DNA of 64,000 bases from contig CALXXE010000007.1 of the NCBI GenBank assembly GCA_944392605.1, positions 1-64,000 on the forward strand, written 5' to 3'. The position numbers and the translations under genes are program-made. Position 1 is the first letter of the stretch. Each line of letters starts with the position of its first letter. This document shows positions 38,333 through 43,162 of this stretch, piece after piece. The DNA comes from an uncultured Clostridia bacterium (lineage in GTDB: Bacteria > Bacillota > Clostridia > TANB77 > CAG-508). Below the pieces are notes generated by a model. That model had not been told where the DNA came from and did no database searches. It was given only the letters and a program-made list of their open reading frames with translations.

Positions 38333-38602
38333 AGTGATTAAAAATTGAATAATAAAATCGATGATTAAGAGAGTAATTTTATATTGAAGCAACAGCGAGT
38401 TAGGTAGAGTGAGAGCTAACATGTGGATTGTAAAATGAAAAGAACTTATGAGTGGCTATGGGAAAAATTTAAATATTTAGTATCATAGTTCGCGGACTCG
38501 GCGTTACTGAGAATGAGTGATTTATATAGAAATTAAAAAATATATAAATAATTAGAGTGGTACCACGTTTTTTAGCGTCTCTTGTAAAAGAGACGTTTTT
38601 TT
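38333..38602 (+). promoter_or_regulatory. T-box leader controlling argGH
   Basis: A roughly 270-base leader with T-box hallmarks. AAGAGAGTAA near the start is followed by a long stem I with apical AGCGAGTTAGG and GTGAGAGCTAAC. The antiterminator core AGAGTGGTACCACG is at 38554-38567 (variant of AGGGTGGNACCGCG), and the terminator GCGTCTCTT/AAGAGACGT plus eight T is at 38574-38602. The gene downstream makes arginine, so tRNA-Arg is the expected ligand; an AGA in AAAAGAACT (about 38437) is a possible specifier. Uncharged tRNA would favour antitermination. Confidence 0.9.
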
Positions 38603-41310: not shown

Positions 41311-41339
41311 TTGACAATTACTTTAAAATGGTTTATACT
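41311..41339 (+). promoter_or_regulatory. Promoter of the tRNA pair
   Basis: Perfect TTGACA (41311-41316), 17-base spacer, TATACT (41334-41339), 27 bases before the first tRNA. Confidence 0.85.
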
Positions 41340-41366: not shown

Positions 41367-41443
41367 GCTCCCTTAGCTCAGTTGGTCAGAGCAACTGGCT
41401 CATAACCAGTGGGTCCAAGGTTCGAATCCTTGAGGGAGCACCA
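41367..41443 (+). tRNA. tRNA with CAT anticodon (Met, or Ile2)
   Basis: 77 bases with encoded CCA. The acceptor GCTCCCT pairs with AGGGAGC. The anticodon arm is CTGG-CTCATAA-CCAG with anticodon CAT, and the T arm contains GGTTCGAATCC. CAT is shared by elongator Met and by the Ile tRNA modified to lysidine. The CTCATAA loop fits either, and it lacks the initiator's features. Confidence 0.9.
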
Positions 41444-41455
41444 TTTTTTATATAA

Positions 41456-41766
41456 GGGTAGGTGGCCGAGTGGCTAAAGGCGGCAGACTGTAGTCTTTGG
41501 TTTATTCCAAAACCTAAATTTGCAGCTCATACAAGTGATTGTATGATGATAACTAGGCTAATTCGGGGAATCCTTAACAGGTAAGGCTGATGGCAATCCC
41601 GAGCTAGGAAAGAAATTTCCGAGTGTAGAGACTTTATACCTAGTATCTTAATTTTAAGATAAAGAGAAAGTCCAGACTACAAACAAGAAATTGGTAGTGA
41701 AAACTATAGTAGTAAGAAATCTGTTCTCATTTGAGTACGAAGGTTCGAATCCTTCCCTGCCCACCA
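41456..41766 (+). tRNA. tRNA-Tyr(GTA), split by a group I intron
   Basis: The exons are 41456-41491 and 41717-41766 (86 bases after splicing, CCA encoded). Acceptor GGGTAGG pairs with CCTGCCC. The joined anticodon arm reads CAGA-CTGTAAA-TCTG with anticodon GTA. A long variable arm (TTCTCATTTGAG) marks the class II tRNA-Tyr of bacteria, and the T arm has AGGTTCGAATCCT. The intron falls between anticodon bases 35 and 36. It shares the promoter of the CAT tRNA just upstream and ends at a strong terminator. Confidence 0.92.
41492..41716 (+). mobile_element. Group I intron in tRNA-Tyr (225 nt)
   Basis: Core elements are legible: GGCAATCCCGAGC (P/Q region), GTGTAGAGACTTTATACC (R), and AAGAGAAAGTCCAGAC (S), with ACTTT and AAAGT able to form P7. 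These resemble the small IC3 introns of bacterial tRNA genes. The 5' exon ends CTGT; an internal GCAG (in TTTGCAGCTC) can pair with it, giving the U-G wobble at the splice site. The intron ends in G. No ORF is inside. Splice points are inferred from tRNA reconstruction. Confidence 0.88.
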
Positions 41767-41816
41767 ATAATCGACAAAAAGTAGTTTTAACTATTCATTT
41801 TGTCGATTATTTTTTT
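41767..41816 (+). terminator. Terminator after tRNA-Tyr
   Basis: ATAATCGACAAAA (41767-41779) pairs with TTTTGTCGATTAT (41798-41810), followed by six T. Confidence 0.9.
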
Positions 41817-41831
41817 AGGAGAAATAAATTT

Positions 41832-42122
41832 ATGGATTTTAAAAATAATAAAGAAAAAGGAAATTAGGGATTATTGATGGTAATAGCTTATTTTACAACT
41901 AATTGATATACTGTTTCTGTTCCTTTAAATGACACACAAGATTATGATAACAGAGATTTTAATCTTGGTCAGTATTATGTGTTTGCTAAAAGTACAGATA
42001 TATTTGAAACAGGAATTACTAATATTAAAGATAATAACCAAATTATAAAAAATTTATTTGCTGATTTTGATTTAAGAAAATTTCATCAAGCAAATAGTGT
42101 TGATAGAGGATTGAGTAGATAG
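41832..42122 (+). pseudogene. Broken PD-(D/E)XK endonuclease-like gene, intron-associated type
   Basis: One reading frame of 97 codons contains internal stops at 41865 (TAG) and 41904 (TGA). Read through, it gives MDFKNNKEKGN, GLLMVIAYFTTN and YTVSVPLNDTQDYD. This is the start of the PD-(D/E)XK endonucleases associated with group I introns (I-Ssp6803I-like), where G(L/I)..AIAYF...GY.VS(I/V)PL.DTQ.YDL is usual. After QDYD the expected domain is missing and an unrelated 50-residue tail follows, ending FHQANSVDRGLSR. Both nonsense changes plus a deletion make it dead. Family assignment is from memory of the motif. Confidence 0.7.
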
Positions 42123-42151
42123 AAAATTTGTGGAAAGAGGAGAGAGATTAT

Positions 42152-43162
42152 ATGGAAGAAAATAATATATTTGAATTTGCAACAAAAGAGTTGTCACAAG
42201 ATGCTTTTATATGTTGGTTAGTAAATTCTATAAAAAATGGAGATAAAAAAGTTGGTGAAAAAGGTAAAAGTTTTTTAAATTATATATTTACAAAAAAGGG
42301 GATAACTGTCCATAAATATGAGACAATAGAAGTTTTAAAACAATATAAAAAAATTGATATTTTAATTATTGTGAATAATAAATATTTTCTAATAATAGAA
42401 GATAAAAAGTTTACAGGAATTCATGATGAACAAATAGAAAATTATAAAAATAAAATAAAAAAAGATAAAAGATATAAAGAACAAATAAAGGATGCTAAAA
42501 TTATAACAGTGTATTATAAACCTTATGAAGAACTAGAAGAAATATATGCAGATGTACATATAAAAAGACAAGATATGTTAGAAAAAATATTAATTGATGA
42601 TGAAAATATAGATAATAATATTTATATTGATTATAAAAAGTATTTAGAAGAGATTGAAAATACAGTAAAAAAGATAAGAGAAATACCAATTAAGGATTGG
42701 AACAAGAAAAAAGAGTTATTATATAAATTTGCGTTTGATTATAATAAAAAATTCAGTAATAAAGAGAATAATAAAAAATGTAGAATACAAAGTATGCAAG
42801 GTTCAAACTATGTAGATTGGTATCTTATTGAAAATCTAAAAGAAAAATATAATAAAATGTTTAAAAAGATGTATTTAAGTTTAAACATAAATTATGAATT
42901 AAGAGAATTGAGAGTTAGAGGAGAAGTAAATGAAACAGATAAAAAATTAATGTATGACGAGAAAATAAGGAATGAAGTATCTAAAGAGCTATATGAAGAG
43001 TTTTCAAAAATATTCAATGATAAAAATTGTGAAATAACAGCTAGAAAAAAAGGAAAAAATATTAATCTGCTTACTATAAATCTTGATGAAAATATTAAAT
43101 ATGATAAATTGGAATATGTAATGAAAGAAGCAGAAGGACTATTAGATAAATATCAAAAGTAA
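42152..43162 (+). CDS. PD-(D/E)XK nuclease-superfamily protein
   Basis: 336 residues. NIFEFATKELSQDAFICWLV followed by KIDILIIVNNKYFLIIEDKK has the D...ExK pattern of PD-(D/E)XK nucleases (DILI, then IEDKK). It resembles the PDDEXK_4 group often found near restriction or defence genes. The C-terminal half is lysine-rich and unassigned. ATG 42152 has ggaaagagg upstream; GTG 42128 is a less likely start. It stands alone between the broken endonuclease gene and tmcAL. Confidence 0.7.
   Translation: MEENNIFEFATKELSQDAFICWLVNSIKNGDKKVGEKGKSFLNYIFTKKGITVHKYETIEVLKQYKKIDILIIVNNKYFLIIEDKKFTGIHDEQIENYKNKIKKDKRYKEQIKDAKIITVYYKPYEELEEIYADVHIKRQDMLEKILIDDENIDNNIYIDYKKYLEEIENTVKKIREIPIKDWNKKKELLYKFAFDYNKKFSNKENNKKCRIQSMQGSNYVDWYLIENLKEKYNKMFKKMYLSLNINYELRELRVRGEVNETDKKLMYDEKIRNEVSKELYEEFSKIFNDKNCEITARKKGKNINLLTINLDENIKYDKLEYVMKEAEGLLDKYQK

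Follow-up and report, generated by a model that had tools for sequence, protein, structure and literature searches.

We infer, with good confidence, that the tRNA-Tyr gene of this uncultured Clostridia bacterium carries an essential, self-splicing group I intron that has been spread by an adjacent endonuclease. In the window (the whole 64,000-nt stretch of contig CALXXE010000007.1 that was analysed), the 5' exon lies on the forward strand at 41456-41491 and ends in U35 of the anticodon, and the 3' exon, with a long variable arm and an encoded CCA, lies at 41717-41766 (both from ARAGORN). Joined, the two exons give a class II tRNA-Tyr(GUA), called by ARAGORN as tRNA-Tyr(gta), just as the first-pass annotation had claimed for the removal of 41492-41716. 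When allowed to look for introns, ARAGORN reports a single tRNA-Tyr with a 225-nt intron at gene position 37, which enters after gene base 36, that is, tRNA position 35; the junction thus falls between anticodon bases 35 and 36 (U35/A36), and the annotation's placing of the cut in a tRNA-Tyr host is borne out. At the exon join a single A could belong to either side, which leaves the position of the join uncertain by one base. In group I introns a U precedes the 5' splice site and a G ends the intron, and we set the join at 41491/41492 and 41716/41717 because of these rules. The splice-site U, the guide G opposite it and the terminal G, all proposed earlier, are present in the window sequence. 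At the same time, ARAGORN run without introns calls no tRNA-Tyr at this locus, finding the upstream tRNA-Met only, and the Rfam tRNA model matches the interrupted gene in the window's genome as a mere fragment.

The 225-nt intron (41492-41716, forward strand), which ends in G and contains no reading frame of at least 80 aa in the list of open reading frames, is defined by its match to the Rfam group I model, by covariation in 21 introns and by empty sites in relatives. Over the 361 bases searched, RF00028 matches positions 41499-41697 at E 3.3e-9, and its score of 40.8 bits does not reach the 50-bit gathering score, a listing threshold and not a property of the RNA class, and the intron is therefore missing from the list of the whole-window scan. 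Nor was the tRNA-Tyr intron recovered by an RF00028 search of the window's own genome, and because of that miss we built a core model, R1, from the conserved P2 to P7 region (41526-41677 in the window, forward strand). R1 scores the window intron at 170.9 bits, by construction, since this intron is among its 21 training sequences.

Those 21 introns (13 Tyr, 6 Asn, 1 Lys and 1 Thr; alignment A4) were aligned with six exon bases on either side, and a structure running from P1 to P9.1 was drawn by hand with helices taken from RNAalifold. In this structure 98.8% of the 996 base-pair cells are paired and 26 of 48 pairs show two-sided changes, located in P1 (one pair), P2, P3, P4, P5, P6, P8, P9 and P9.1, with a covariation score of 0.438 as compared with 0.161 for shuffled and at most 0.069 for slid alignments. 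The conserved P3-P8 group I core with its P7 pseudoknot is present throughout; P7 is paired in 21/21 introns but invariant, and hence uninformative on covariation. RNAalifold applied to the introns alone gave two-sided changes in 26 of 46 pairs, a result that is not independent of the hand-drawn structure because the helices were borrowed from it. The covariance match, below the curated cut-off as it is, and the covariation of the core together uphold the earlier identification as a group I intron, and the 225-base RNA almost certainly splices itself out.

The internal guide, ATTTGCAG, lies at 41518-41525 (forward strand) and makes 8 of 8 pairs with the joined exons, CUGU followed by AAAU: guide GCAG pairs with 5' exon CUGU in P1, where the G at 41522 stands opposite the splice-site U (G·U), and guide ATTT pairs with 3' exon AAAU in P10. 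Among the aligned introns, the guide fits the joined exons at 7-8 of 8 positions in 20/20 Tyr, Asn and Lys cases and at 6/8 in the single Thr case. Considering that the guide scan kept the best of 100 places per intron, a match of 7/8 is not rare in itself; the guide nonetheless occupies the identical position, directly before P2, in 21/21 introns. A U·G at the splice site in P1 and a terminal G were likewise read in all 21, the ends being set by exon motifs, and the U and G counts of a larger automatic intron set are not independent because these rules chose its splice sites.

When the window's genome and 54 relatives were searched at the DNA level, the tRNA-Tyr intron was found in 12 of the 54, from four families of the order. 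Exact empty sites, where the BLAST halves of tRNA-Tyr meet at the predicted join and share the ambiguous A, were counted by hand in 28 of the 55 genomes, some within the same genus as intron-bearing loci, so that presence is patchy; eight genomes gave no match and six a partial one only, which in G031 is an intron cut by the contig end. Where only the intron interior matched, the cause was a related intron in tRNA-Asn(GTT) beside 5S rRNA, in tRNA-Lys(CTT) or in tRNA-Thr(TGT). ARAGORN misnamed some interrupted tRNAs (for example as 'Phe'), and their hosts were then assigned by hand from the exons.

With R1 we found 100 matches in 65 of the order's 191 genomes and 18 of its 39 genera; four matches scored below 62 bits, and genome G160 is counted on one such weak match alone. 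Their hosts are tRNA-Tyr (39), Thr (33), Asn (21), Lys (1) and Leu (1), with five left unassigned, among them one (L294) with an N-stretch inside what ARAGORN calls tRNA-Tyr. The first-pass annotation had called the tRNA-Tyr host unusual, and for the order this has to be qualified: introns of this family, whatever their host, are common there, with at least one match in 65 of 191 genomes. Across the class, R1 matched 10 of 391 genomes, eight in the window's order and two, weakly, outside it; this search scored seven candidates per genome under stricter filters, and weak R1 matches may therefore be lost.

Beyond the class, the core DNA pattern occurs at 82 sites in viral contigs and at least 118 in genome contigs. 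Among the matches listed, most of the named genomes are metagenome-assembled and carry the label Clostridia or Clostridium; animal guts are the source of many, and some belong to Bacilli, Proteobacteria, Omnitrophica or Bacteroidota. Splice sites and hosts were assigned for 113 of the 119 listed named-genome matches (six cut at the contig start were left out), for 83 of 99 viral matches (leaving out the 16 weakest) and for 96 of the 100 order matches, the other four having been read earlier, plus the two class matches. No host could be assigned in 12 of 113 named, 29 of 83 viral and 7 of 98 order and class cases (five order, two class). The 113 named hits, among the matches listed, lie in Thr (46), Tyr (31), Asn (13), Leu (5), Lys (4) and initiator-like Met (2) tRNAs; this set overlaps the order set, 13 of its 31 listed Tyr introns being identical to an order-set intron. 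The viral hits are in Arg (25), Tyr (6, with L134 doubtful), Leu (6), Asn (5), Ser (4), Lys (3), Glu (3), Thr (1) and a CTA-anticodon tRNA (1), single assignments in this set being less sure.

Some viral contigs deserve separate description. In contig L083 four tRNA genes (called Tyr, Glu, Leu and Thr) are split by group I introns, and contig L094 repeats its Tyr and Glu introns. In the CTA case (L101), an intron of the same family as the tRNA-Tyr intron interrupts a tRNA whose anticodon is of the stop type; in another contig (L099) the initial call of the anticodon was TTA, revised later to Lys(TTT). Three R1 matches, L378 (37.7 bits), L380 (69.3 bits) and L382 (28.8 bits), lie beside phage helicase and capsid genes, in two crAss-like phages and one Pelagibacter phage.

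The insertion point is 35/36 in Tyr, Asn and Lys tRNAs and 36/37 in Thr. Comparison of guides with hosts over 184 bacterial introns assigned to these four tRNAs, many of them near-copies, showed that the guide fits its own junction best in Tyr (7.22 of 8), Asn (7.94) and Lys (7.25), these fits being partly built in because the splice finder applied a guide criterion. Thr guides averaged 5.24 of 8 at their own junction versus 5.44 at the Tyr junction, and 59 of 78 pair with just two of the four bases of the 3' exon. Guide and host thus agree well for Tyr, Asn and Lys and more poorly for Thr.

We built a quick tree of the introns from 187 rows and 162 columns, leaving out unassigned, tRNA-Met and duplicate rows and adding one Lys row; several of its branches are long. 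Introns group by host tRNA in this tree, with 24 host changes in total as against 105 after shuffling: bacterial Asn introns require one change (support 98), Tyr two and Thr three. Leu and Lys rows are ungrouped (four changes each, for six and for five rows); the phage introns of Leu, Asn and Glu tRNAs are scattered over the tree. For the order's 38 Tyr introns, placing one genus (g1) as a single clade was rejected (p 0.00015), which supports transfer between genera, and placing one family (f1) as a single clade was compatible with the data (p 0.21), which gives no support for transfer between families. One related record, L187, contains a 225-nt intron identical to that of the window, and its flanks match at 88.8 to 97.8%, the two longest matches at about 89%.

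A nuclease gene accompanies many of the Tyr introns. In two Bacilli records (L178 and L231), both in tRNA-Tyr, long introns encode a PD-(D/E)XK protein; the L178 protein matches PDDEXK_5 (PF11645) with 62.5 bits against a cut-off of 26.1, a score that belongs to this in-intron copy, and the L231 protein is 85% identical to it. The nuclease reading frame in L178 and L231 appears to cross the guide and P2, overlapping the ribozyme sequence. Among phage introns, one in tRNA-Asn (L109) encodes a PD-(D/E)XK protein (89 bits) and one in tRNA-Thr (L154) an HNH protein. In the order, queries with such proteins placed the gene outside the intron and downstream of the tRNA at 20 of 38 Tyr-intron loci. 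At 16 of these loci the distance from the first base of the 3' exon to the start of the match is 116-134 nt, and at the other four it is 63, 216, 524 and 1187 nt; 11 of the 20 genes are intact as judged by a sequence pattern, the rest being truncated, carrying stops, reduced to C-terminal stubs or leaving the fetched stretch. The remaining 18 Tyr-intron loci gave no downstream match, and only in seven did the available sequence fall short of 1 kb. No downstream nuclease was found at 32 Thr, 20 Asn or one Leu intron loci (520-748 nt examined downstream; 81 nt in one), or at 11 intronless tRNA-Tyr loci, where the flank of two was no longer than about 50 nt. A later find, L402 in genome G201, has an intronless tRNA-Tyr with a C-terminal nuclease relic just downstream, where either the intron was lost or the relic arrived alone. 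The named-genome set, which overlaps that of the order, has a nuclease at 16 of its 31 listed Tyr loci, and one of six phage Tyr loci (L085) has one. In two Bacteroidota records, L219 and L264, an initiator-like tRNA-Met with a 300-nt intron is followed by a similar nuclease gene (2/2).

Searching whole genomes of the order gave nuclease matches in 30 of 191. All 19 copies that match over at least 115 residues with at least 63% identity (one with a stop) are in genomes with a Tyr intron; 17 share the intron's contig, at distances of up to about 1.3 kb in 15 cases and of about 9 kb in two. Genome G154, with no intron match, has a full-length relative that is 42% identical, and weaker relatives (30-33%) occur elsewhere; the G154 relative (L406) sits within an array of eight tRNA genes. 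A profile of the nuclease matched I-Ssp6803I (2OST) with E 2e-8, where a single sequence reached only 0.11, and the predicted fold of a downstream copy (pLDDT 87.4) had I-Ssp6803I as its first Foldseek match (E 3.4e-7, TM 0.78). Residues D39 and Q52 are invariant and K54 nearly so, and the intact copies in relatives have the predicted fold and the active-site pattern of I-Ssp6803I-like PD-(D/E)XK enzymes. The median dN/dS over 55 pairs of the 11 intact genes was 0.25 by a simple counting method. Intron and nuclease distances at 18 loci correlate with r 0.37, equalled or exceeded in 6 of 5000 permutations, a correlation that shared descent alone could also produce.

In the window, the nuclease is a broken PD-(D/E)XK (PDDEXK_5) remnant at 41832-41954 (forward strand; tblastn E 2.5e-6) whose reading frame is not intact, with two in-frame stops. 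The order-wide search recognised it with E 1.0e-14 and 76% identity over aa 1-41, the rest of the gene being unrecognisable, and in a Pfam search of its own genome it scored 14.8 bits, under the 26.1 cut-off. Upstream of both tRNA genes, TTGACA and TATACT spaced by 17 nt (41311-41339, forward strand; read by eye) form what we take to be a sigma-70-like promoter, followed by an uninterrupted tRNA-Met(CAT) at 41367-41443 (forward strand; ARAGORN; RF00005 74.4 bits over 41367-41440). A terminator-like hairpin and T run follow at 41766-41818 (forward strand), with perfect 14-nt arms at 41766-41779 and 41798-41811 found by repeat search. The gene after the nuclease relic, at 42128-43162, is PDDEXK_4 nuclease-like; we rejected it as the intron's nuclease, as it belongs to another Pfam family and lies in a stretch without a match in L187. 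In L187 this stretch without a match reaches from the tRNA end to about 43168, though both sides match, which looks like an insertion beside the tRNA or a loss in L187. Elsewhere in the window a T-box leader (38352-38585) precedes an argininosuccinate synthase gene. Locus L032 (G000:C12:42600-43500) has a second, partial tRNA-Phe-like stretch directly before a tRNA-Phe and a matching 3' part after it, an arrangement in which we suspect an integrated element.

The first-pass annotation held that the cell depends on the intron unless a second tRNA-Tyr gene exists, and this is well supported. In 20 intron-bearing genomes, including the window's, a spliced tRNA-Tyr query matched with its halves apart and never across the join, and 19 of the 20 show no sign of a second copy (18 with a completeness of at least 94%). 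The window's own assembly has 31 tRNA matches above cut-off and no second tRNA-Tyr among them, an absence that is weak because the assembly is 88.7% complete and other tRNAs (Ala, Asn, Ile) are unseen too. This incompleteness would suit a reading of the interrupted gene as a dead copy, with another tRNA-Tyr serving the cell, as would a 27-nt, tRNA-Tyr-like tRNA-end fragment at a contig start in one of the 20 genomes (G146). We consider that reading very improbable: the exons yield a complete tRNA, the introns show compensatory change, and a second copy was not seen in 19 of the 20 genomes. An assembly chimera or chance fold, for which the draft state of the assembly and its 7.25% contamination might speak, is more improbable by far, as a like structure occurs in 12 of 54 relatives in separate assemblies and the L187 intron is identical over its whole length next to flanks whose two longest matches are at about 89%; the relatives, the lack of a match to a second tRNA-Tyr and the covariation led us to reject it. 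The cell most likely relies on splicing of the intron for its tRNA-Tyr.

How the intron moved is a separate question, and here collaborative homing fits the anatomy of the locus best. In the precursor, 5' exon CUGU and 3' exon AAAU would both be paired to the guide AUUUGCAG; a guanosine cofactor would attack after U35, and U35 would then attack after the terminal G, giving an intact tRNA-Tyr. The intron belongs to a family that sits in the anticodon loops of Tyr, Asn, Lys and Thr tRNA genes, and spread of the Tyr branch was most likely driven by the separate PD-(D/E)XK gene about 70 nt downstream of the tRNA. Its product would cut intronless tRNA-Tyr, and repair from an intron-bearing copy would transfer the intron together with the nuclease gene. 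The window's copy of that gene has decayed, leaving the intron, presumably self-splicing, on its own. Alternatively, the intron could be old and vertically inherited within the order, and the nuclease a separate selfish gene whose own intronless homing targets the 3' flank of tRNA-Tyr, independently of any intron movement. The clustering of introns by host tRNA and the acceptable single clade for f1 agree with this, as do the position of the nuclease outside the intron, about 9 kb off in two genomes, and the relic behind one intronless tRNA-Tyr. We nevertheless regard it as unlikely, considering the exact empty sites inside one genus, the rejected g1 clade, the confinement of the 19 near-full-length nucleases of at least 63% identity to Tyr-intron genomes and the like nuclease inside the Tyr intron of two Bacilli records; the correlated distances point the same way, with the caveat that shared descent could suffice. 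Returning to homing in trans, we lean modestly towards a wider account in which one self-splicing family colonised essential tRNA genes (Tyr, Thr, Asn and rarely Lys or Leu), its Tyr branch was moved in trans by the downstream nuclease, the coexisting nuclease states record how a composite mobile intron arises and decays, and phages were possible vehicles.

Known systems share parts of this arrangement. In Synechocystis the I-Ssp6803I gene lies inside the tRNA-fMet intron, whereas the order's nuclease gene is usually outside the intron, downstream of the tRNA. The Synechocystis intron is, in the passages available to us, likewise a group I intron in a tRNA anticodon loop, and I-Ssp6803I (PD-(D/E)XK, PDB 2OST) has its fold and family in common with the order's nuclease; host tRNA and phylum differ. 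Bacterial Leu(UAA), Ile, Arg and fMet tRNA introns are also small group I introns at the anticodon loop. The published passages at hand place bacterial tRNA introns in cyanobacteria and alpha- and beta-proteobacteria, with fMet, Ile2, Leu(UAA) and Arg(CCU) hosts and, in cyanobacteria, also Arg, Gly and Lys, and these accounts, as far as their available passages go, name no Tyr, Asn or Thr hosts in Bacillota. Collaborative (trans) homing is described, in the passages of PMC3984707 at hand, for two phages, where a cyanophage psbA intron is paired with a free-standing nuclease; the likeness consists of a free-standing nuclease gene, an intron without an ORF and a common presumed target, but that system belongs to phages, whereas the tRNA-Tyr case concerns bacterial chromosomes, a tRNA gene and putative cleavage. 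We found no description of a bacterial tRNA-Tyr group I intron in the passages of PMC8450103, PMC3984707, PMC2729099, PMC4033280, PMC5733544, PMC3943268 and PMC7886860, or in the open-access literature as far as its available passages extend; subscription papers and preprints lie mostly outside that coverage, which is therefore weak evidence of novelty. Neither the sister introns in tRNA-Asn, -Thr, -Lys and -Leu nor the homing-endonuclease relic just behind the tRNA figured in the first-pass annotation.

Since default tRNA finding misses the interrupted gene, genomes of this gut lineage can seem to lack tRNA-Tyr and, by the same logic, tRNA-Asn or tRNA-Thr. The range of nuclease states (outside the intron, inside it, broken, or a relic beside an intronless gene) makes the acquisition of endonucleases by introns directly testable. 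If splicing is essential, many members of the order need a ribozyme to decode Tyr codons.
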